Source: Microcyclospora pomicola
Taxonomy: Eukaryota; Ascomycota; Dothideomycetes; Capnodiales
Reading direction: 5' to 3'
Assembly (NCBI GenBank): GCA_002786065.1
Contig: NHNY01000030.1
Location: 124,001-188,000 of the forward strand
Length of the DNA: 64,000 nt
Shown here: one piece after another, positions 18,579-58,945 of the stretch
Position numbering within the stretch: the stretch's first letter is position 1
How the letters are laid out: every line of letters begins with the position of its first letter
The notes under the pieces: generated by a model
Seen by the model: the letters and a program-made list of their open reading frames with translations, nothing else
What the model was told of the DNA's origin: nothing
The model's database searches: none
Translations under genes and position numbers: made by a program

Positions 18579-21500
18579 CTACAACCATGCCATCCACAAC
18601 AGATCCATACCTGCTAGTTTCTCTGGGTTTGTAGCACGTGCTACCAAGTCCAGTACGCTCTGATTCGCAGGGAGATTTCCCGCAGCTGGCTCGCGCGCGA
18701 GCAGAATTGCTTTGTTGACGATCTGATCCGCGTTCCGCTGCACATTCTCTCGTAGCTCGTTCTCTTTGATGGTGGAGCGGTGTGAGGAGGTGTACCAGAA
18801 CGACATCTCATCACGAATGAAAATGCTGAGGTGGTGGGAGAGGTCACTCGACGAAGGGACGATGTCGATAGCTGGTGCGGCAGCGGTGCCATTTGCGGCT
18901 GAAGCACCTTCCGTTCCATTCGTGGTAATCGTCGGCGCCGCTGGGCCATTGGCGGTACTGTCTGTTGTCAGGCAGCGTGCAATGGCCATGAGTGCACACG
19001 TAAAGATGCCCTCTGTGTGGATCGGACCCATCAGGACTTGCAAGTTGGGCGTCAGCCGGAATGGCACGGCTTCAGGATTCGAGAAGTATGGCCTTGTGCT
19101 GCTCATAAATGGCAGAAGCTCGCTACCCCAGACATTGCCACTCCGACGTGCGATGTGAAGCTTGTTCGGGTGGCGTTGTGTCATGTGCATCGTGAACGTG
19201 ATGAACGTGAGGGCTGCGAGCTGGTAACTGAATTGTCGGCGGAACAGCCAGAACGCATCGAACGTAGGGAATGTGGCAGCGAAATACTGACGAACGACAT
19301 CCTTGGGGACATAGCGTTGTTGAACATGATTCAGCGATTCCAGGCGTGTGTTGAGATACTGATCTTGCTTCTGGGGAGTGATGCCGCGCAGCTTCTCCAT
19401 CGTGAACATGGTTGGCTCGTCCTTGTCCAGCTCATTGCGGCGGCAATAGTCTTCGTAAACACCCTGTAATGTGACATACGATGCATCGTCTTGAATCATG
19501 CGGATCTGCGGGCTCAGTGGGACCATGACTGGCAGGTGGAACTGTAGGTTGCGACGTCTGCTTTCCTTCTTCTTAGCTAGTGTGCTGTTGAAGATGCGGA
19601 AAAGCTGCAGGATCCGCTCCTCTCGCCGGCTGTGACGAGGGGCGGGATGCTGGATGGCGAACGGATGAGTACTGCCGTCATGTCCTCGAATCTTGAGCCG
19701 TCGATGACAGCCAGCGGCACCACGCACGAGGTCGACGACGGGCAAGAAGCGCTCGATGCGAACGAAATCCTGGTTCTTATCCTTGTGCTGCAAGTATTGT
19801 CCAGGAACCTCGACTTCATCAAACCACACAAAGCGGAACCCACTGAGATGTGTAGACTCGGCCAAATGGAATGTCGTCGGACGCCGATCGAGCTTCTCGG
19901 CAAGCTTGTCGCGCCATTTGCGTAGCTTCTGAATGTATTCGAACATTGTCGGTTTCTTGCTTACAAAGTCGACTTCGAACGCTTTGCGAATATGGGGAGG
20001 CAGGATGCTTTCGGCAAAGCGGGTGATGTTTGCTTCTGTTTGCTGGGGCAACTTGCTATCTTGCACAAATTGATGCGGTGCTCGACCCACGTAGCTTAGA
20101 GCATCGTTCAAAAGTGCAACGATCAAGCGGAAAGCGTCCTCATCAGGCGGGCACTTGAAGTGCTTCTGGATTTGATCGACAAGTGCTTCCATTGAGGCAT
20201 ACAGCAATGGAAACGCGGTGCGCAGCGTGATGACCAATGCTTCAGTATGCTCCCACGGCTTTTTCGGCTTCGGTGGCTCGCTCGGTTTGGCCTCTTCGCC
20301 GGCAGTCTTGACTGGCGTGTCATCCGTGCCAGTCATTTGCGTGTCCGCTCCAGCCGCTGTACCTGGTCTCGATGCAACCGTTGCATTCTCTCCTGCAGCA
20401 GGGGATTCTTGCTTGGTGGTGTCGCCGCCTGCCTTTGCTGCCCTTGCCGCCTTGTCACGTTGCTCTTTGAGGGCTTGTGACTTGCGAATGACCTGCATAT
20501 CATCATGGCTGGTTCGAAGCTGGAAATGTAACGCCTGGGGATAGGTCTTGGCCAAGTTGGTCAGGATCTGGTGTGCAATGTTCGCTTCGCCTTCTGTTCG
20601 CGACAAATTGTTCAGCAGTTGTGGAATGAATGTAACCCAGTACCACCAAGGCTGATCTCCCTTGAAGTTGCCGTACACCTTTGCCAATGTAGCGTTCGCG
20701 TCGTCAAGACTGAGTAACCACAAGATCCTGCTAAGTAATTTCCTGGATTTGGCAGACTTGTACTGTCCTGCAGCTTCGAGATAACAGCTGATGGCATTTC
20801 CTGCAAGCTCTAAGTTGTTCGGCTCTTCCTTGAACAGATAGTCGCTGTATCGACCCCACTCCGCCCAAGCCTTCGGCAGCTTGATATCGAAGAAAAGCGC
20901 CGTACCAAAGGCGTCGTGCGCCTCGTCCTTCTGGTTCAGCTTGCTGAGGAACATGCCTTTGAGGGTATAGAATTCTGCCTTCTGCTGCTGACCGAAGTAG
21001 TTCAAATTCGTGTTATTGATTACATCCAATCCGCTGGTCAGTTCACTACGATTCTGATAGTGACACTTGGCTTGCTCACGAAGCTTCAAGAAGGCCTCCT
21101 GAATCTCAATGTTCGGCAATGTGTAGATTTTGCTTAGCTGGTTGACACAGACCTCCAGCATTTGGTGCTTACGTGCTACGTGAGCAAAGCGGTTGATGAT
21201 CCAAGCCGTTTCATGGTAGCCGCGGTATGCGTACGAATTGCCTGTGTTGGCGTTGGTGCCGTTGTTCGGTAGCAGCCCAAGGTATGTGCCGTTTATGAGG
21301 GTGAAGATATGCTGACGCCATGTTACGAGGTCCTGCCATGCATTGATATCGTCCCATAGGTTTGGCAGACGATCACGCCATGTACTCAAAAGCACTTTGA
21401 GCTCTTGACTCTTCACGTCCAGGTTCTGTGCAGTTGTCTGTGCAAGTGACTGACAAATGACGCTGGCATCGTGCAATTCAACTAGCTGCTGAAAGTTCTC

Positions 21501-24500
21501 CAGCAATCCAATGTGAGCATTGGTGATAGTGCGAGGTAGCTTATGCCAATTCTTAATGGACAATTGTATATTCTCGTCACAGACTCTTACGAAATCTTGC
21601 TGGGACTCTTGCTTGTTGTGCATCTTGAGCAGGCTCATGAAGGCCTGGAAGAACATGCGTCTGGGGGTAGGGGCATCCGAAACAGCTTTGATAATGGAAT
21701 CCAGCTGTTCGCGAGGCTCAGCGCTGCTCCAGGCGTCGTAGTTGCGCCATGTAGCCTCGAGATAGAGATCGTTGATGTTCTCGTGCTTGGCGAACTCGGT
21801 CAGAATCTCCCATTGCTGCAACTTTTGCGCGCAAAGGACCCACTGGTCCTCCCAAAGCATGTACTCTCCTTGCGAGAACGGTAGGGAGCCAGTACGAGCC
21901 TTGATCTGCGCTTGTTCGTACATATTCTGTGCTTTGTCCCAAATTCCATTCTGCTCGTACGAAAGTGCAGCATTGGTCTCCACAAACTGTGCTCGGCGCC
22001 TCCAAGTTCCGTAGAAAAGATCGCTCTCTTCTAGAGTAGCGTATATCTCGACCAGTGCGTCCAGCGTACTCTCGCGGATGTTGGCAGTGTCGATCGGTGG
22101 TTTCATGGCCAGATCTTCCATAAAGCTGGCAGCCACATACCATCCGTCGAAAGACTTGGCTAGGAACTTCATGACATGTGGAGGAAATTTGCAGACTGGT
22201 TTGGCCTTCGCGATACCTTCCAAGAGTGTAGACACACAGTTTGGTCGTCGATCCACTTGACGTTGGTGAAAGTCTTTGGTAAGTAATGAGATGAGCCCTT
22301 GCTCAATGTCATCACGATCTTCCCGTGAGAGAGTTGACCAGCACATCGGAAAGTATGCTACCCAAATATCATGTGCTAGCTGCCAGTCGGTGTGCTGCAG
22401 ATCTGCGAGGGGGACGAGGAGATCGCGTGTCTTCACACTACCGATCTCGTTCATGAACTGCTTTTCCGCGAAGACAATGCTCTCAAATTCACCGTCAAGC
22501 ATCACATCTGTAACTCTGGCATCTCCACCGTGTGAGGCATACAATTTGCTTGCGGGGAGTGTTTTGAAATCTTCCGAGTGTAGATGAGCAGGAGTGCTTT
22601 GTTCGATAGACCCAAACATCAGCTGGATGATCTGCGACAACCAGAAGGTGTCACCCAGAATGTCCCACTGTTGCTCTGAGATCAGCTTGAAGAACCGGTT
22701 GCTAGTGGATCTGCTCAAAGCTCGATCGAAGATTGTCATGAAGCGTGACCTCATCTCGATATCAGGGCTACGAAGCCCGATCAAGAATGCATGCTCCATT
22801 CGTACGGCAAGCTCAGACCGGAAAATTCTTGGGTCTTCGTAGATCCTGATCACCAGGCCAATGAACTTCGTATAAAGTGTTGGATCTGATCGGCCTTCGA
22901 AGAGCAACATCTTCTGTAGCACGGCTGTCTTCTCCTTGAGGGTAGGCACCGGCTCGGTAGGATTGAAGACCCAAGTTTCGACTTGTCCGAGGATCTTCTC
23001 ACACAATGCATTGCTGTTGCTTCGTTCGACCAAGGATGCGAGAACACTCAGATAAGGTCTCCTTTGCTCGCCTAAAGCGCCGATCCGTGCCGATAGCATG
23101 TCAATGACCTTGATGATAAGATTGGTCGTCACCTCTGCCTCCTTAGCACTTGGCATCATAGTGGGCGGGATACCTTGTGCTGCAGCAGCTTGTGGCGAAA
23201 GCTGTGCTGCAAGATGATCTTTTGCCAGCTTTGTTTGCAAAGTCTTCAGTAGGGCAGGAATGTGAGCATCCACATCTTCGGGTCGTCGTTGCGCCATGAT
23301 CCAGAGTATGTTGATGCCAGCCATATGCGAGCCATTATTGATAACGTCACCGGCAATACTGGTCAAGAAGCTGATGAACTCCTCAGTAGGCGAGTCAGCA
23401 TCGGGTAGCTCTTCCTCCGGCGGCGCAAGAGGTATTGCCTCAAGGATTCTCTGCAGTATCGGTGGTAGCTTAGGTTCCATGCCATCAGGTAACTCTGGCG
23501 TGTGAAGCGCTTCCTGTGTTTCGTAGCTGTCGCTTCTCAGAGGTTTGGCCAGTAGCTTCTGCAGTTGAGGCAGCCTTGCAACAACCCACTCATTCGGTCT
23601 GCTGACAAGAAGCACCTTCAGAACTTGGATTGTGTTCAGAGTACGTGTCATGATCACGTCTTGTTTGTCATCTGCTTTGGCATCGTTGCAAAGGAATTGT
23701 TCTGTCACTCTAGGAAACATGGCGTCGATGTCGAGATCATCCCAATATGGGGGACTCAATAGTTTCAACAGCAGGTCCAGCGACTTCGAGACAGTCTCAG
23801 TGTTTGAATTCTGCATCGTTGATCCACCGGAAGCATGCTGAGGTGCAGCTTCCCGCGCTTTGATGGCTGTTGGCCCAGGAAATCGTTCTGGCAAGGTGAC
23901 AATGAATTGTACCATGTACTTCAGCAATGACATCCTGACGGGCGCATTGCTGATTGCGCCTCGCTTGTCAGTACCTTCTCGATCGCCATCTGGGGATCCT
24001 GTTCCAGCTAGTGAACCTTGTTCTCGCACAGTTCGCTCCTCCCACTGCCAGATTAGAATGAAGATATTCAGAGCTAGTCTCCGAAGTTCTGGACTGGAGC
24101 TTGGCACTTGTGCAACTTTGTTGAGGTTTGGGATCATCATGCCGGAGAACGCTTCCCGTGCTTCATAGAACAGATCCGGGTGTCTAACGAGAAACTGATA
24201 GATGCTCGTCAATTGCTGTACATTGCCGACCTCTTCTGCCAATATTTTTCTCGGCAAGCGTGTCCATACGCTACTTTGCTGGCGATTGTCAGGGGCGGTC
24301 CCACCCAACCGTTTCTTGAGGACAGGCTCCAAGATTTCGAGAGACTGCACCACCAGATTCTTGCCTTCCGTCTGGTGCGCGCGAAGCAGAGCTCCATAGA
24401 CTTGCATTGCAATCTTGGCAGGAGTGTCGTACGATGCGATGAAATAGGCTATGAGCACGTAAGCTGCATACTTGTCGATGTGGTCTTCCAATCGAATGTA

Positions 24501-27500
24501 GTTCCAACCAAACTTGATTAGGTCCTTGCGGGTATCCTGAACCAGTGCGCTATGGTATTTGACCAAGAAAGCACTAGTTTGCAAGAGCTCCATGCGAGAG
24601 TGGTCTATGCCAGGTGTTTCATCGACCGAAGAGCTATCAGCAATGCTCTGCGGCCTCCAGAGCTTGTTGAGGATAGCCTCGGTCATGCTCTTGTCGAGGA
24701 GCGCTGTGCCCTTGTTGCCATCCACAAATAACTGATCCCAATTTCTCATGACATCGTTGGCGAGGATCGGATTCATGACATTGTGGAAGGCGAACCACTT
24801 CAATTTCTGCGTTGTGCTCTTGCTGGTGTAGATGTCTATGCAACGCATCATCACACCACGTTGGAAGTCAACGTCGTCACTCGTGACGATATAGCGGTAC
24901 AGGTACGAGTAGAAGCTCGGCATTGCAAGCAGCTGGCCCTCAGTAAAGCTTTCCATGATGGCAAATAGAGTGTCAAGATCGTTGGGATGACGGCGCATAT
25001 AGGCTATGATGACCCGCACGATCTTTTCGGCGCTTTGGACAGCAGCGAGCCGCATATTGCCCTTCAACAGTCGTTCACGGACCTGATGTTGAAGCTTTTT
25101 GGCAGCGTCAATCAGCGCTTTCCGCGCACTATCGTTATCTGCAAGTTTGCCTCCCACTTCTTCGTATTGGCACAGTGCATCTGCAGCTGCGATTGCATTG
25201 ACTCTTGCCACGGCTGCTGCTCCTTCGTCACTAACAGAATTGAAGGCTTGGACGAAAGACTCAATCTTTTCGACGAGCATGTCTCTCAACGGACCCGCGT
25301 TAGGATCGGCCAGAATCTGAGCAAAGAATCTGCCCTTGCTTTCATCACCAAGTTGCTTGCCGAAGTATGTCCAGGACTCTGCAGTGTAGTGGCAGAGATA
25401 CTGGATCAATGGCTCTCGGAATGGACTGCTCCTGGTTCGTCTGAGATTCTGTTCCAGTCCGATCACTCTCTCGACGAGTTCTGGCAAGAATTGCACAGCT
25501 GCGGGTGGAAGTAAGTGAAAGACCGAGAAGATCGCAGTGACGACCTTCATCTTCGGTTGCGCTTCTATTAAACCAAAACTGCCCTTCTGCAGCGTGGCCG
25601 GATCTGCAATACTGCGCATGTGATCGAGCAGCCTGGTCCCGATCTCAACCTTGAAGTAATTGGTCAGAAGCTGTAGCAACGTCCGTAGTCCCTCGAGACC
25701 CTCTACGTTCAACTTCCTCGGGTCCTGAACATTCATAAGAATCGGGCGGAGGCCATTCTGCAGCAAGTCTTTGGGTAACTTCTGCGTAGCCGCGAGCACG
25801 ATCTTTAGACCTGCATTGGCGGCTGCCGCAACTTCGCGATTCTTGTGGTACAGTGACTTGAAGAAGATGCTGATAACGCGCGCTCTATGCTGAGAGCTTG
25901 CGCCACCTGGCTGCTGTGGTGGTGTAGCTTGGTTCCCGCCACTTGCTGGCTGGCTTCCATTCTGTGATACCGTATTGACGTTTGCTGCAAAGTTTGGAAA
26001 TCTTATGGCTGTTGTGAGTAGCTTCAGCCCAGCGATTCGCAGTCGCACGATGCTCTCCTGCGTTCTGAACTCATGAGGCTTTTGCGCAAGCGATTCATCA
26101 TCAGCATCCACCAACGCGAGCGTTTCAAAGAGTAGACGGTTCAGCTCGGCATCGAATGCAAGCACGTCGTGCTCCATGTCGAGCAGGAAGTTAACAGCAT
26201 CAATGTAGCCAATTTGTGCAGAGAATGGGAGGGCTCGAAGTGGCTTGTTGAAGATGGGCGCCAGCAGGGGGTCTTTCACAGGATTTACCAGGTCGTGAAT
26301 CGCCAAATCCAGTGTCTCGGCCAGTGTACAAAGCGCAGCCTGAGTAGCCTCACGTACATGTCGGTTCATGTGGCTGACTTCGGCGATCAGGCGATTGGCT
26401 AACTCTCTTAGCTTACTGTCCTTCTCCTGAAGATCGGTCTTCTTCACAGCTTCGCTCGCGCCAAAACGTTTGATCAGGGCAATGAGAGTGTCTTTGGCCT
26501 TCAATCGTACGCCGGCAGGCAGGTCTTGCGGCATATCTTTCATGACGTAGAGCAGACCGCGAACCATGTCGAATGCCTTGTCAGTGACCCATGAGTCGGT
26601 GAATTGCATCTTAGTTGCATCAATTAGGATATCGATGCCAGCTGTACCGGAAGATTTGGTGAACCATTCCTCTTCATAGCAGGCTTTGACGGCGAATTCG
26701 GATAGCTTCGCGAAGAATGGCAAATCTTCGGCGTGAGAGACTGTTAAGTCTGCAGCTGCTTCAGAAAACATGACTCCTGCGAGTCTTCTGCACCTTTTCA
26801 TCCCCGCTTCTGCTACATCTCGAACACTGAGAACGTCGCTCGCTAAAGACTCCCGGAAAGCCTCCGCGAGGACACTGGTGTCGATGTACACTGGGCCATC
26901 ACCAGCGTTGACATGGAAGCCGCTTTTTCTTTGCTTTTCGGTGGCCAGCGCTACTCCAAGCTCGACAATCATGAAATGCCGGTAGACACCATGCAACAAG
27001 CTTTGAGCATCTTCTCGCAGACCCTCGAACTCAGCATCTGATGCAGCACCATCCGTGGTGCCGGCAGTGTATATGATCGCCTTGAGTAGTTTTCGCATGG
27101 TGTCGCGTTGCGCGTCACATTTGGCGGCACTTTTCGACCGTTCACTTACACTGAAGACATCCGAGGGTCCTTCGTACGTCTTGTCTGCCAAATCGGTGGC
27201 TTGTAAACGAATGAGTTGTCCCAAGTCCTCGGGAAGTTGATCGAAACCGATGAGCATCTTGACATGCGCACTTGCGAACTTGAACGCTTGACGCTTGTAG
27301 TGGAGATCCGTCTTTCGCTGCTTCTCTGTCTTGGGTACAGGGTCCCATAGCCGGTCGATAGCAGTATCAATGCCCAGACGCGCAGGGAACGCTCGAGAAC
27401 CGCCGTTCGAAATGGCACCTATGAGACGAACATCGAACGAGGCTTCGTCATCTGCGTAGGCTCTCCACTCTAAGGACGGGGGCCCTGTGATGAACCTGCG

Positions 27501-30500
27501 GTTCCGTCCTCCTAGTTTTCCGAGAATTCGCACAGCGGTATGAGCACCTTGGTGACCAGTGCCCAGGATTTGGCCGTTTGCACCTGTGGTGACACAACCG
27601 GCTTGTTGCTGATTGGTGAGCGATATAGGTTTGAGCATACGCCAGAGGGAACCCATGATTTCCTCCATCCATGGCGCCATGATGGGATCCAGGTAGTCGG
27701 CAGTGAGATTGTCCACGCAAAGTTCCAGCGTCCTCAAACCTTGCGCGGTGAGTTCTGATGAACCCGCGCTTCCGTTGCGCAGGGTATCACTTCCAGCATT
27801 ACGCCCCTCCCCCCTGGGACCATCACGTTCGCCGCTGCGCAGTGCAACAGTGAGCGGCCGCATGAGGTAGCCCAAATGTGGTAGAAGGTGGCTCAGGCGA
27901 GCAGGTACTGTAAGCGATAGCTCGACGAATAGGTCTCTAGTCCCGCCATCTGGTGCAGCCGCAAGCTGGACATTCAGAACCTCGAGGACCATTTCAAGAA
28001 GTGGTAGAATCTCTTTGTACAAGCCCTCGAATCTTCCACCACCAATACTACGGAATAAGCTTCGTAGCAACAGGAAGTAATTGGTCGGCTCATCCGCGGT
28101 CACGCTAAGCTCGATACTTCGTGTGATCAGTTCACGTACCCAGCCGAGGAGGACTCCTTCGTTGACCGCGCTGAAGAGGGTTACAGCCATGAAGCTGAGC
28201 TTGAAAAGACGCAGTAGAACGCTCGTTTTAGCGTGTTCCTTGGAGCCTACCTCATCCAGCTTCGACATCAAGAACTTCAGGAGCATTCCACAAAATGCCG
28301 GACTGGTAGCTTCGCTCGCAAGTAGAAATTGGGGTATATGCAGTAATGCGCTGTGCTGGAAAGAGGCCTCATACAGGTACTCGATACCTGTTTTTTGTAC
28401 CTCGACTATAACGTTGGGGTCGGGACTGCCGCCAAACGTCGTGGTTGGTGCCGTGAAGATCTCATAGAAAACAGCCGGATCCAAGTGGTGAAATATGGTT
28501 GCGAAAGTCTCAAGTAGATCTTTCTCTTCCTTGGACGATGCAGTCGTGTTCGCCAGACTTTGTTGCGCTTCAGCAGGCTGGGGACTTGTACCATCCTGGA
28601 CCTGATCGAGCGGTGCATAATACTTAAAGCATTGTGCCCCATCACGGAATAATCGCGACAATACTTCGACTTCTTCCGCAACGAATCCAAACGAGAGTTC
28701 AGACCAATTCACAGGAGCACCGGTCGGTGCGTCTTTCGTATCGTCGTTGCTGGCAATGTTACCGTTCTCCAGGGCGGGTACCGGCGCGGGTGGGTTGGAA
28801 TTTCGTAGTTGGTAGAAGAACGTTTTGAGCCCGTGCAGGAGATTGCGAAAGAGGAACTTGTTCTCCGTCACAGGATCAGCCATCCTCTCTCTGCTCGACA
28901 CAGGTCCGATGGGCATAGCAGAGGAGAAGAGATCGATGAAGTCCCAATCAGGTTTTTGGTCTGCGTTCGCGACGAATGATTCTTGCGAGACATCCATGGT
29001 AGAGCCCGTCTCATTTGTGCTGAAAGCTGAGGTACGTTGCTGTTTCGAGAGCTTGACGGCATTAGGGTATACACGGTTCATGGCTGCAAACTTGTCCGCA
29101 ATCCCCGCGAGCACTGTCATCATGAGATAGCGGGCAGTCTTTTTGTCCTCGATCTTGCTCGTGCACTCGGCCATGTTCAAGAGCAGCTTGGCGGACATCG
29201 TTTGATAGCTGGTTCCGGGTACCTCAACGCCTCCACCACCATCTGCGCCTGTGAGGTGTCCTACAAAGACTTCGACCACTCTTGAGATCTGCTCCGCGTC
29301 CAGCTGTTCCCTGACATGATGGATCAGGTCCGCTAGCATTGTATACGCCAAAGGTTTGAGTGTGATATCTGCAGTCAGTGAGTCGCCTACCAGTGTGCGT
29401 GAGTCTAGCAGAGGTAGGATAACGGGTAGGAACACAGATCGGAAGTTAAAATTGATGATATGTCTGATGGCAACGAGCAGTTCTTTCCGGGTCGCAGTAT
29501 GACTTCGTGGTACGTCTCGTAGCAGCCGGACAGTCAAGTCGGGTAGAAACTGGAGGAAGTCACTGAGAGTTGACTGGTAGGCTCGGAGTAGATAAGCAAG
29601 GAAACTCATCGTTTTCACCTGGGCAGTTATGAAGTCGCCAAACGTGGAGATTGCGCCAGGACCCCGAGCTCTGATCTGAAGCGCGATGCCCGTGAAGATA
29701 TCTTTCCGGGACGCGGCCTCTTCATGGGCACGCTTCTGAGGACCAGCTTGCAAGAGAAGAGTATTCTTAATGCGGGGCGTGAATTTCGACACATTCTTCG
29801 GAGCAAGGCCGCGATATGCCTGAAAGATGCTGACCACTATGATAGGACACTCGGCGAGTAGCTTGAAGGACGATACACCTTTCGCGAGCTGTCGCGTCGT
29901 TTGTTGTTCTGCGCCAGGCTCAGCCGTACCGACCTGCTGTGACACAGAAGGGGATCCCGGAGTACCATGTCCACCAGGAGTAGCAGGTGCCGCAGAAGCT
30001 GCGACAGGTGCTGCAGCATCAAAAATCTCTTTGACGGTTTGTTCCATGCCATCAAAAATCTCCAGTATGAGTTCCAAGAACGCTTGCGCCTTTTCCGCTA
30101 TCCCAGCGACTTTGGCGAACCACCGACACATGTCCATAACAATCTTGAGGCATAAGATGGCATTGTCTTCGTTTTCCACCTTCACCAGGCTCATGCACAA
30201 GTCGAGAATGTTGACAGCATATTGTTCGGTGTTGGCTGGGAGACCATCGGGATGTGTGTGTGGATTCAGAGGCAGACGATGTATGATATCCAGAACACAT
30301 TGTCGTACTTTCTGCTCGGGACTCGTACTAGTGAAGACCGGTGGGCTGGACAGAATGTTCAGGAAGATCGGGACCAACTTCGACAGGAACGCCGCAAACG
30401 TGGGTGGTTGTGTCCAGTGATCTAGGCCGTCGCGTATCTCGTTGAGTAGTGTCCCCTTGGCCTTGGCGTCAATTGTCGCATCTTGAAGCTTGGCCTCGTA

Positions 30501-40983: not shown

Positions 40984-43198
40984 ATGTCGGACGCTCCCCG
41001 ACGAGACATCCGCAACCACGTCCTCTTCGAGGTCGCCACAGAGGTCGCCAACCGCGTCGGCGGCATCTACTCGGTGCTCAAATCCAAAGCACAAGTCACC
41101 ACCGCCGAATATGGCTCCAACTACACCCTGCTCGGCCCACTCAACAGAGCCTCCGCCGCGGTCGAGGTCGAAGAGATTGAGCCCAAGGACCAGGCCATGA
41201 TCAAGACCATCAAGAGCATGAACGAGCGTGGCATCCAGACTCTGTACGGTCGTTGGTTGATCGACGGTGCGCCGCGAGTCTTGCTGTTCGACACCGGCAC
41301 CGGCTACCACAAGCTCGACGAATGGAAGGGTGATCTGTGGTCGACGGCAGGCATTCCCAGCCCGCCGGATGACCACGAAACGAACGAGGCCATCGTCTTC
41401 GGCTACCTCGTCGCATGGTTCTTGGGCGAATATGTCTATCACGAGAAGGAGCGTGCCGTCATCGCCCAGTTCCACGAATGGCTCGCCGGTGTGGCCCTCC
41501 CGCTCTGTCGGAAGCGAAAGATCGATGTGACGACCATCTTCACCACCCACGCCACCCTCCTCGGACGCTACCTCTGCGCCGGCTCGGTCGATTTCTACAA
41601 CAACCTCCAATACTTCGACGTGGATGCCGAGGCCGGCAAGCGTGGCATCTACCACCGGTACTGCATAGAACGTGGTGCCGCCCATGCTGCCGATGTGTTC
41701 ACCACTGTCAGCCATATCACGGCCTACGAGAGCGAACATCTCCTCAAGCGCAAGCCCGATGGCGTTCTCCCCAACGGTCTGAACGTTAAGAAGTTCAGCG
41801 CCACTCACGAGTTCCAGAATCTGCACCAGATCCACAAGGAGCGCATCTCCGAGTTCATCCGCGGCCACTTTTACGGCCACAACGACTTCGACATGGACAA
41901 GACGCTGTACTTCTTCACCGCCGGCCGATACGAGTACCGCAACAAGGGTGTGGACATGTTTATCGAGTCGCTCGCCCGCTTGAACCACCAGATGAAGGCT
42001 TCAGGGTCGGATATGACGGTTGTCGCGTTCATCATCATGCCGGCACAGACGACCTCGCTGGCGGTGGAGGCGTTGAAAGGACAGGCAGTGATCAAGTCGT
42101 TGAAGGACACTCTTGGCCACATCGAGCAGAACATCGGCAAGAAGCTGTTCGAGAAGTCCTTGACATGGCATGAGGGGCAACCCGTCCCAGACGAGAAGGA
42201 CTTGCTCAGTGCGCAGGACAAGATCATGCTGAGACGACGTCTCTTCGCCATGAAGCGGAACAATCTCCCGCCGATCGTCACGCACAACTTGGTCAACGAT
42301 GCTGAAGATCCCATTCTGAACCAGATCCGTAGGTGTCAACTCTTCAACGCCCCCTCGGATCGTGTCAAGGTTATCTTCCACCCTGAGTTCTTGAGCTCTG
42401 GCAACCCGGTTCTCCCCATCGACTACGATGACTTCGTTCGCGGCACGCATTTGGGTGTGTTCAGCTCATACTACGAGCCCTGGGGCTACACGCCGGCCGA
42501 ATGTACCGTCATGGGTGTCCCGTCCATCACCACCAACTTGTCCGGCTTTGGATGCTACATGGAGGAGCTGATAGAAAACGCTGCCGACTATGGTATCTAT
42601 ATTGTCGACCGACGGATGAAGGGCGTCGACGACAGTGTCAACCAGCTGTCGGATTACATGTTCGAATTCACCAAGAAATCCAAGCGTCAACGCATCAACC
42701 AGCGCAACCGAACTGAGCGCTTGTCCGATCTGCTCGACTGGAAACGAATGGGAATGGAGTATGTCAAGGCCCGGCAATTGGCGCTACGGAGAGCTTACCC
42801 CGACTCGTTTGCCGATGGCGACGACCAACCCGGCTTCTTCGACGGGACAGAGGGATTGAAGATCAGCCGTCCATTGTCCGCGCCTGGCTCGCCACGAGAC
42901 CGGAGCGGCCTGATGACGCCTGGTGATTTCGCGTCCATTCAAGAAGGTCGGGAAGGCCTATCGACGGAAGATTACATAGCATGGAAGCTGCCGGAGGAGG
43001 TAAGTTTCTGCTGCATTTTCTCGAACTCTTTCCCACCACTCTGTACAACGACTGACCCTTTATGCGTTACAGGAGGAACCCGAAGACTACCAATTCCCGC
43101 TCACGCTCAAGGCCAAGAACAAGAGCGGCGTCAGCTCCGAGGGTGGCAGCGGCGCCGTGACGCCGATGATGGTGAACGGCAATGGCACTCAGCTATAA
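40984..43198 (+). CDS. gsy1: Glycogen [starch] synthase, GT3 family
   Basis: Two exons, 40984..42999 and 43073..43198, with a 73-bp intron (GTAAGT...TTACAG) give 713 residues. The splice joins KLPEE to [19 protein letters not shown]. The N-terminal nucleotide-sugar motif [17 protein letters not shown] and the C-terminal E-x7-E motif in [20 protein letters not shown] are intact, as is the Arg-rich allosteric helix [21 protein letters not shown] that binds glucose-6-phosphate. The tail holds clustered Ser-Pro/Thr-Pro sites ([21 protein letters not shown] is in this region), the expected targets of inhibitory kinases. It extends alpha-1,4-glucan chains from UDP-glucose in the cytosol. Reading through the intron would give a false 866-residue frame. 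Confidence 0.97.
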
Positions 43199-47373: not shown

Positions 47374-48150
47374 ATGGCACGCATCTTCATCACCGGGTCC
47401 AGCGACGGCATCGGCCAACAAGCCGCAAAAGTGCTCATCCAACAAGGCCACAAAGTCACCCTCCACGCACGCAACGCACAACGCGCGCAGCAAACCCAAG
47501 ACGCTGTCCCGCAAGCCGAAGGCATCCTGGTCGCAGATATCTCAACCATCGCTGGCGCGCGAGACCTGGCCCAACAGGCCAATGCCGCCGGGCCCTGGGA
47601 CACAGTCGTCCACAACGCCGGGCTAGGTCCGAGCAACGGCGACCACAAGACCGCCGATGGATACGCATCGACATTCGCGGTTAACACGCTGGCGCCGTAT
47701 ATCCTGACCAGTCTGATGGCGCGGCCGAAACGGCTGCTGTACCTCTCGAGCTCGATCCATCTGAGCGGCGACGAGAAGCTGGAGGACGTGGCGTGGACTC
47801 AGCGCTCGTCCTGGCAGGCATACCAAGCCTACGCCGACTCGAAGCTGCACGATGTCATGCTCGCCAACGCAGTGGCACGGCGGTGGCCCGACGTCGTCTC
47901 GTGCTCGCTCGACCCGGGCTGGGTGAAGACAAAGATGGGAGGGGGCGGCGCGCCTGGGAGCACCGATGCGCCGGCGCAAGCCATCGCTGGGTTCGCGACG
48001 GGCGATGAGACGTTGACGGGTGGACAGTCGGGCGTGTACTGCAATCCGTCTGGAGTGAAGAAGCCGCACAAGGGGGCGTTGAATACTGGCAAGCAGGATG
48101 AATTGCTCCAAATATGCGAGAAGTTGTCGGGGGTTGCGTTCCCGAGTTGA
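47374..48150 (+). CDS. Short-chain dehydrogenase/reductase
   Basis: A single exon gives 258 residues. The NAD(P)-binding motif TGSSDGIG is at 7-14, NAG at 81-83, the catalytic serine lies in YLSSSIHLSG and the YxxxK pair is Tyr153/Lys157 (YADSK). The motif PGWVKTKMGG follows, as in classical SDRs. The reaction is a keto/alcohol interconversion on an unknown substrate. Arg33 in LHARN after the second beta strand suggests NADP preference. There is no targeting signal. The gene ends 171 bp before the tRNA gene. Confidence 0.9.
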   Translation: MARIFITGSSDGIGQQAAKVLIQQGHKVTLHARNAQRAQQTQDAVPQAEGILVADISTIAGARDLAQQANAAGPWDTVVHNAGLGPSNGDHKTADGYASTFAVNTLAPYILTSLMARPKRLLYLSSSIHLSGDEKLEDVAWTQRSSWQAYQAYADSKLHDVMLANAVARRWPDVVSCSLDPGWVKTKMGGGGAPGSTDAPAQAIAGFATGDETLTGGQSGVYCNPSGVKKPHKGALNTGKQDELLQICEKLSGVAFPS

Positions 48151-48291: not shown

Positions 48292-48299
48292 TATATAAA
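48292..48299 (+). promoter_or_regulatory. TATA box upstream of the tRNA-Val gene
   Basis: TATATAAA lies 30 to 23 bp before the mature tRNA 5' end. This is the position of upstream TATA elements known to help TFIIIB placement at fungal tRNA genes, and it supports the tRNA gene being transcribed. Confidence 0.6.
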
Positions 48300-48321: not shown

Positions 48322-48454
48322 GCTTCTATGGTCTAGTGGTATGACGTGTCCTTCACACGGACAAGGTCCCGGGTTCGATCGTAAGTTGCCGCCGCGCAGT
48401 GCTCATGCTGTGATATACTGTGATGCTAACAAGCATTTCAGCCCGGTGGAAGTA
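48322..48454 (+). tRNA. tRNA-Val (anticodon CAC) with a 61-nt intron in the T arm
   Basis: Exonic parts are 48322..48380 and 48442..48454, 72 nt in total before CCA. The acceptor stem is 48322-48328 paired to 48447-48453 (five Watson-Crick pairs and two G-U), with discriminator A at 48454. The D arm begins at 48331. The anticodon stem TGTCC/GGACA encloses the loop TTCACAC with CAC at 48354-48356. The variable loop is AGGTC. The T stem is CCGGG/CCCGG and the loop TTCGATC, but the 3' half of the T stem is found only after a 61-bp insertion. The A box TGGTCTAGTGG is perfect; the B box reads GGTTCGATC and then runs into the insertion. A valine isoacceptor with discriminator A is expected. Confidence 0.8.
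48381..48441 (+). other. Spliceosomal-type intron inside the tRNA-Val T arm
   Basis: The 61-bp segment starts with the ideal donor GTAAGT, contains the ideal fungal branch site GCTAAC at 48425-48430 and ends in TTTCAG. It sits between tRNA positions 60 and 61. Eukaryotic nuclear tRNA introns normally lie at 37/38 and carry no such signals. Exact removal gives a complete T arm. It could be an introner-like insertion, a class of mobile spliceosomal introns described in Dothideomycetes; I found no second copy by eye in this window. Confidence 0.65.
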
Positions 48455-48503: not shown

Positions 48504-48511
48504 TTTTTTTT
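48504..48511 (+). terminator. RNA polymerase III oligo-T terminator
   Basis: Eight T residues on the coding strand lie 50 nt after the tRNA 3' end. No run of four or more T occurs between, so this is the first Pol III stop signal. A weak hairpin (AACCC/GGGTT) lies just before it. Confidence 0.6.

Positions 48512-57749: not shown

Positions 57750-58945
<1,196 letters not shown>

Follow-up and report, generated by a model that had tools for sequence, protein, structure and literature searches.

The tRNA-Val(CAC) gene and its insert

The window analysed here is a stretch of 64,000 nucleotides (nt) of contig NHNY01000030.1 from the fungus Microcyclospora pomicola. At positions 48322-48454 it holds a tRNA-Val(CAC) gene, the T arm of which is split by a 61-nt insert with the signals of a spliceosomal intron. 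The parts of the gene and its flanking elements for RNA polymerase III (Pol III) are listed below, where the A and B boxes were assigned by their consensus sequences and the other signals were read from the sequence.

48292-48299, plus strand: TATATAAA, TATA element at about -30
48322-48380, plus strand: exon 1 of tRNA-Val(CAC), with the acceptor 5' strand, D arm, anticodon arm, T stem 5' strand and T loop to position 60
48329-48339, plus strand: A-box-like TGGTCTAGTGG
48372-48380, plus strand: B-box core GGTTCGATC, within exon 1
48381-48441, plus strand: 61-nt spliceosomal-type intron, GT-AG, at 60/61 (strict deletion test; single genome match)
48381-48386, plus strand: 5' splice site GTAAGT (GTAAGT or GTAAGC in the other four tRNA genes described below)
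48425-48430, plus strand: branch-site-like GCTAAC; the branch A (48429) lies 12 nt upstream of exon 2
48439-48441, plus strand: 3' splice site CAG
48442-48454, plus strand: exon 2, with the T stem 3' strand, acceptor 3' strand and discriminator A
48504-48511, plus strand: T8 run, about 50 nt beyond the 3' end of the tRNA and presumed to terminate Pol III transcription

The joined exons 1 and 2 gave a 72-nt product that was named tRNA-Val(cac) by ARAGORN, and no ARAGORN call was obtained with the unspliced 48322-48454. With the Rfam tRNA model, exon 1 reached 22.7 bits, which is under the cut-off of 29, and exon 2 was unusable by the model. ARAGORN was permissive towards the borders of the insert, as 15 of 24 deletions of the same length shifted by 1-12 nt were still called Val. 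Therefore, a stricter deletion test was applied, in which 20-110 nt were removed and the product had to have seven acceptor pairs, five pairs in the T stem (with G-T allowed) and GTTCRANYC. In the case of Val, exactly one deletion passed, 48381-48441, which starts with GTAAGT and ends with TTTCAG.

The locus had been described before in a first-pass annotation made from the letters alone. On rereading the sequence, its coordinates and letters for 48322-48454 were right, and the signals GTAAGT, GCTAAC and TTTCAG were present as claimed. Its proposal that the removal of 48381-48441 produces a complete 72-nt tRNA-Val(CAC) agrees with the ARAGORN call and with the sole deletion passing the strict test. 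The seven acceptor pairs that it had counted do form a full stem after the removal; two of them are, however, G-T pairs. The search that it had suggested for further copies of the 61-bp insert in the whole genome resulted in one match, the insert itself.

T-arm inserts in four further tRNA genes

The genome of the window (23.4 Mb, 58 contigs) was scanned, and T-arm inserts were found also in four more tRNA genes, namely Arg(CCG), Arg(TCG) and two paralogous Lys(CTT) genes:

C12:885491-885616, minus strand: Arg-CCG, 54-nt insert at 53/54
C13:50129-50265: Arg-TCG, 57-nt insert at 53/54 and an anticodon-loop intron
C30:49236-49374: Lys-CTT, first gene, 56-nt insert at 51/52 and an anticodon-loop intron
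C14:143042-143178, minus strand: Lys-CTT, second gene (L154), 56-nt insert at 51/52, found with the spliced Lys query

The five genes carry four different T-arm insertions, at 60/61, 53/54, 53/54 and 51/52, and none of the inserts sits at 37/38, the canonical position of tRNA introns. Their 5' ends were GTAAGT in four cases and GTAAGC in one, the branch motif was CTAAC in three and CTGAT in two, the distance between its A and exon 2 being 11-13 nt in all five, and the 3' ends were CAG (three) or TAG (two). The lengths ranged from 54 to 61 nt, or from 54 to 57 nt without Val; the published median of introns in Dothideomycetes is 57 bp (PMC7181583). Each of the five inserts has the features of a U2-type intron: GT-AG borders with a consensus donor, CTRAY near the 3' splice site and a length within the range of the group. 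In the window, the frequencies of GTAAGY, YAG and CTRAY within 40 nt were 3.0e-4, 0.027 and 0.071, respectively, and their naive product is 5.6e-7 per insert. The GTAAGY form of the full intron pattern was enriched in the window, with 7 occurrences (Val included) versus 2.55 expected (standard deviation 1.34).

In the strict deletion test, Arg-CCG had two passing registers with one product, the GT-AG one. Seven valid deletions with four products were obtained for Arg-TCG, and 16 valid deletions for each Lys gene (11 and 12 products); the GT-AG deletion was among them in each case, and the remaining ones mostly lengthened the variable region. After the removal of the insert, the acceptor and T stems were complete in all five genes by this test. 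The anticodon stem was complete in Val and both Arg genes and had one mismatch in each Lys gene. The ARAGORN names of the joined Val, Arg-CCG and Arg-TCG forms agreed with our assignments. The name Lys(CTT) was kept, as the covariance alignment, a five-base anticodon stem and normal spacing fit it, with one T-T mismatch, and as the genes resemble the yeast Lys(CTT) gene. As they stand in the DNA, four of the five genes were not called by ARAGORN, and one Lys gene was called with another intron.

More T-arm inserts were searched for with the patterns GTAAGN{30,60}CAGTTCRA (36 matches), GGTTCRANYGTRNG (21), TAGTTCRANYCC (17) and CAGTTCRANYCC (36), which cover only part of the possible insertion sites. 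The surroundings of the matches were checked with R1, a D-arm/anticodon-arm model built from 23 tRNAs of the genome; four of these are T-arm-intron genes, and the R1 matches on them arise by construction. Round all other pattern matches, beyond the known genes and a Ser-GCT fragment, only three weak R1 matches (6.7-8.2 bits) were found.

The anatomy of Pol III genes, with an A box, a B box and a T-run terminator, was present. A run of at least five T lay within 60 nt downstream of all five T-arm-intron genes, in comparison with 21 of the 30 canonical nuclear genes and with 1.9% of random places in the window. The corresponding values for a TATA within 60 nt upstream were 4 of 5, 23 of 30 and 9.8%. 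The TATA at -30 and the T8 terminator reported for Val in the first-pass annotation are both there, the T8 run lying at 48504-48511, about 50 nt downstream of the tRNA end. Even in the unspliced DNA, all five genes retain a readable B-box core TTCGA with its preceding G; it is located in exon 1 in Val, and in the intron AG and exon 2, or in exon 2 alone, in the other four. The insertion had also been said to change the end of the B box, which applies to the last two letters of the consensus, whereas the core GGTTCGATC survives in exon 1. The insertion sites may have been filtered by the need to retain the TFIIIC site. As the B-box core can still be read at all the sites found, the internal promoter seems to restrict the places in which such introns can settle. 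An extra B-box-like GTTCGAYT was observed inside the T-arm introns of Arg-CCG and both Lys-CTT genes; the looser GTTCRANY is expected about 0.013 times per intron from its window frequency.

The same type of signals is used in protein genes of the window:

58737-58801, plus strand: intron of a nitronate monooxygenase gene, GTAAGT...GCTAAC...CAG, 65 nt, by protein homology
58091-58155, plus strand: intron of the same nitronate monooxygenase gene, GTAAGC...GCTGAC...CAG, 65 nt, by protein homology
43000-43072, plus strand: probable intron near the 3' end of a glycogen synthase gene, GTAAGT...ACTGAC...CAG, 73 nt, by reading frame

The nitronate monooxygenase joined over its two introns aligned without a break to a solved relative, and its best database match had 95% identity over 96%. 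The Pfam match of the glycogen synthase stops at residue 657, before the join, and the intron is placed by the frame. The branch A was 16, 17 and 21 nt from the exon in these three introns, which were chosen by motif and demonstrate the use of the signals in the window, not their frequency or average form. De novo intron calling from the open frames of the window was too noisy. None of the 25 anticodon-loop introns of the genome, as placed by ARAGORN, starts with GTAAG.

Elsewhere in the window, very long open frames (more than 3500 codons beside candidate introns) were observed on the minus strand at about 18958-29400, perhaps belonging to a giant biosynthetic gene. The best protein matches in the nr database (89% and 95%) were labelled Quercus suber, and the adjacent named matches were from Dothideomycetes; the label probably marks a fungal contaminant of the oak assembly, a close relative of the source fungus. 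The protein similarity places the source fungus near Mycosphaerellales in Dothideomycetes.

Lysine paralogs and the tRNA census

The two Lys-CTT genes sit on different contigs, and their upstream flanks are barely alignable. The exons are identical and the anticodon-loop introns differ by 2 nt. By alignment count, the T-arm introns have 9 differences in 56 positions, and the first 43 nt of the trailer have one. The difference between the T-arm intron (9/56) and the exons with the trailer (1/124) corresponds to a Fisher p value of 1.3e-4. The first ten bases of the intron and the branch stretch GTACTGATCTCC are unchanged. Such a pattern is as expected if the exons and splice signals matter and the remaining intron does not. 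The trailer was much better kept than the T-arm intron (1/43 versus 9/56), which is unexplained by a constraint on exons and splice signals. The second gene (L154) lies between inverted repeats 29 nt long, which match at 27 of 29 positions and give it the look of being part of a small DNA element.

The search with the spliced Lys sequence also revealed two 3' halves that lack the intron:

C30:49714-49745 (L153:615-646): intron-less Lys 3' half, tRNA positions 42-73, carrying the 51|52 join
C14:154123-154154 (L155:424-455): intron-less Lys 3' half, tRNA positions 42-73, carrying the 51|52 join

For about 30 nt both halves continue with the same trailer as the genes, one base shorter, and they diverge just ahead of the T runs. 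The scan of the two sites detected neither a D arm nor a tRNA match. The halves may either have been copied from a spliced transcript or have retained the state before the intron. Since they carry the exact 51|52 join, the borders of the insert are fixed independently of splice-site logic under either origin. Both halves are preceded by a common element, about 190 nt long, that contains a long hairpin.

The Rfam tRNA scan of the genome, in which 63 of 492 candidates were scored, resulted in 53 matches at E <= 1; 18 of them were on C48, a 27.5-kb contig presumed to be mitochondrial, and 35 elsewhere. Thirty of the latter were canonical genes called also by ARAGORN, and the five others were four T-arm-intron genes, Val included, and one Ser-GCT fragment. 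This truncated Ser-GCT copy (L052, C5:77330-77391) lies about 300 nt from the intact gene L013 and is an example of a dead tRNA copy. The anticodon-loop intron was present in 25 of the 30 canonical nuclear genes found, with a length of up to 66 nt (Arg-CCT, L045). The scan missed the second Lys gene, which scored 26.8 bits when scanned alone, and the absence of isoacceptors from the list (Asp, Glu, Phe, Tyr, Trp, Ile, elongator Met and others) proves nothing.

DNA searches of the genome with the spliced Val, Arg-CCG and Arg-TCG sequences detected the gene itself only, and the search with spliced Lys the two genes and the two 3' halves; no intact copy was found with any of the four. The sensitivity of these searches was such that a control with 89% identity over 72 nt (initiator Met) was found, and none of 12 other tRNAs in the same query, which makes such a search too insensitive to reveal the missing isoacceptors. 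The first-pass annotation had set several intact tRNA-Val(CAC) genes elsewhere, together with the absence of any spliced read, as the test for a dead copy; no such gene was found by the spliced-form search or by the incomplete Rfam scan. In three genes of the window, AAG accounted for 73 of 92 Lys codons and GTG for 33 of 96 Val codons.

Explanations, meaning and known systems

The locus is likely to be a working nuclear tRNA-Val(CAC) gene with the T arm interrupted by a short U2-type spliceosomal intron, one of at least five such genes, and the T-arm introns are likely to be removed by the spliceosome. By their recurrence in five genes, such introns are probably a property of the genome. Three options had been left by the first-pass annotation: splicing of a Pol III transcript by the spliceosome, the landing of an introner-like element in a tRNA gene, or a dead copy. 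The first is now the best supported, because four more tRNA genes of the genome have T-arm inserts with the same signals and complete stems after their removal. A recent multi-copy introner is not supported, as the Val insert, searched on its own, has a single genome match and the Lys pair reflects a gene duplication; apart from that pair, the inserts look unrelated by eye except for the splice signals.

The genes could instead be dead, with mRNA-type introns or chance inserts lying in redundant, unused tRNA genes and the activity provided by genes elsewhere. Eukaryotic tRNA genes with an insertion in the T arm are generally taken for pseudogenes (PMC4090602); the genome holds at least one truncated tRNA copy, the Ser-GCT piece, the census is incomplete, and both Lys genes have the anticodon-stem mismatch. 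We consider this improbable, as acceptor and T stems, splice signals and a T run within 60 nt were kept in five of five genes, the Lys exons stayed identical while the intron drifted, and the spliced-form searches revealed no intact copy, that of Val(CAC) included. The introns could also be real spliceosomal introns of RNA polymerase II transcripts, where read-through from a neighbouring protein gene is spliced and the tRNA is cut out later. In the neighbourhood of Val this would be possible, since a short-chain dehydrogenase gene with the same orientation lies upstream, its end at 48150 being about 170 nt away. However, TATA and T runs are as for canonical tRNA genes, and the B-box core survives unspliced in five of five genes, as expected if TFIIIC binding was selected; splicing within read-through transcripts is improbable.

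Removal of the T-arm inserts by the tRNA splicing endonuclease, as in archaea and Cyanidioschyzon merolae, with a merely secondary GT-AG look, seems very unlikely. In its favour, archaea are described to have T-arm introns at 53/54 and 59/60, and the nucleomorph of Guillardia theta has some of 3 nt in the T arm (PMC4090602). A further point in its favour, and against the spliceosome, is that Arg-CCG shifted by one base had a weak bulge-helix-bulge-like fold with four central, three inner and two of three outer pairs, found at 0.23% of random places. At the exact junctions, however, the central helix had 2-3 of 4 pairs and no bulge-helix-bulge was formed in any of the five genes. In Val, where this fold had been named beforehand as an argument against the spliceosome, the search detected none, and at most three central pairs were reached in any register within one base. 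No fold common to the introns was evident, and only the Arg-CCG intron folded better than its shuffles (z -3.8). The endonuclease would have no need of GTAAGY, CTRAY at 11-13 nt and YAG, and its usual substrates in this genome, the 25 anticodon-loop introns, never start with GTAAG.

Several other observations weigh against working genes with spliceosomal introns. The census is incomplete (63 of 492 candidates scored, the second Lys gene and many isoacceptors missed), and a diverged intact Val(CAC) gene could be hidden. Lys(TTT) (L044) and Val(AAC) (L031) genes of ordinary build exist, and Lys(TTT) might read AAG by wobble, so that the need for Lys-CTT is unproven. In both Lys genes, the anticodon stem contains a T-T mismatch at 29-41; their joined form was called Ile(TAT) by ARAGORN, and the unspliced gene on C14 was called Lys(CTT) with a 43-nt anticodon-loop intron. 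The Lys halves without the intron could be older than it. Finally, the looser pattern GTRNGY...CTRAY...YAG was without enrichment in the window (26 versus 27.0 expected).

If the introns are spliceosomal, Pol III would transcribe the Val gene from the A box and the surviving B-box core to the T run. The spliceosome would then recognise GTAAGY, CTRAY and YAG in the pre-tRNA and remove 54-61 nt as a lariat, and the T arm would fold and the ends mature only after the removal of the intron. In Lys and Arg-TCG, the anticodon-loop intron would be removed separately by the tRNA endonuclease. As these genes hold both an endonuclease-type and a T-arm intron, one pre-tRNA would therefore pass two splicing machines. 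It is quite possible, though we propose it tentatively, that the spliceosome is an obligatory tRNA-processing enzyme in this fungus, with several needed isoacceptors (Val-CAC, Lys-CTT, Arg-CCG, Arg-TCG and perhaps others among those not found) present only as genes that carry a spliceosomal intron in the T arm, with some pre-tRNAs going through both machines, and with the Lys halves being reverse-transcribed relics of spliced pre-tRNA. In that case, the supply of tRNA, and hence the decoding of AAG and GTG, would be tied to the capacity of pre-mRNA splicing.

The introns of tRNAs and mRNAs are taught as separate worlds with separate enzymes. Needed tRNA genes with mRNA-type introns would show both types meeting in one transcript, and that Pol III transcripts besides U6 can be substrates of the spliceosome. 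Such genes can be missed by tRNA finders. They also raise testable questions on the access of the spliceosome to Pol III transcripts and on the gain of spliceosomal introns in non-coding genes.

Among the titles and abstract openings listed by the literature searches, which had little coverage of subscription journals, none described a tRNA gene with a spliceosomal intron. The ordinary 37/38 introns of the tRNA splicing endonuclease occur beside the T-arm intron in Lys-CTT and Arg-TCG and differ from it in position and in signals, GTAAG starts included. The introns described for archaea, C. merolae and the cryptophyte nucleomorph are alike in their T-arm positions (53/54 and 59/60 in archaea) and in sometimes being several per gene; in contrast, they are tied to the bulge-helix-bulge or are 3-24 nt long, and none of those described in the consulted parts of the sources has mRNA-type signals (PMC4090602, PMC3978253). 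The introner-like elements of the Dothideomycetes Fulvia and Dothistroma are likewise spliceosomal introns, recently gained in the class (PMC4457414). They are recognised by many near-identical copies, whereas the Val insert has one. A precedent for an mRNA-type intron in a small structured non-coding RNA is provided by the spliceosomal introns of fungal U3, which have normal splice and branch signals, and by the introns of U6; as of 2017, no small structured RNAs other than U3 and U6 were known to be often interrupted by an intron (PMC5832005). The host in those cases is a part of the spliceosome or a small nucleolar RNA, whereas here it is a tRNA, the T arm of which is broken by an intron that abuts the internal promoter.
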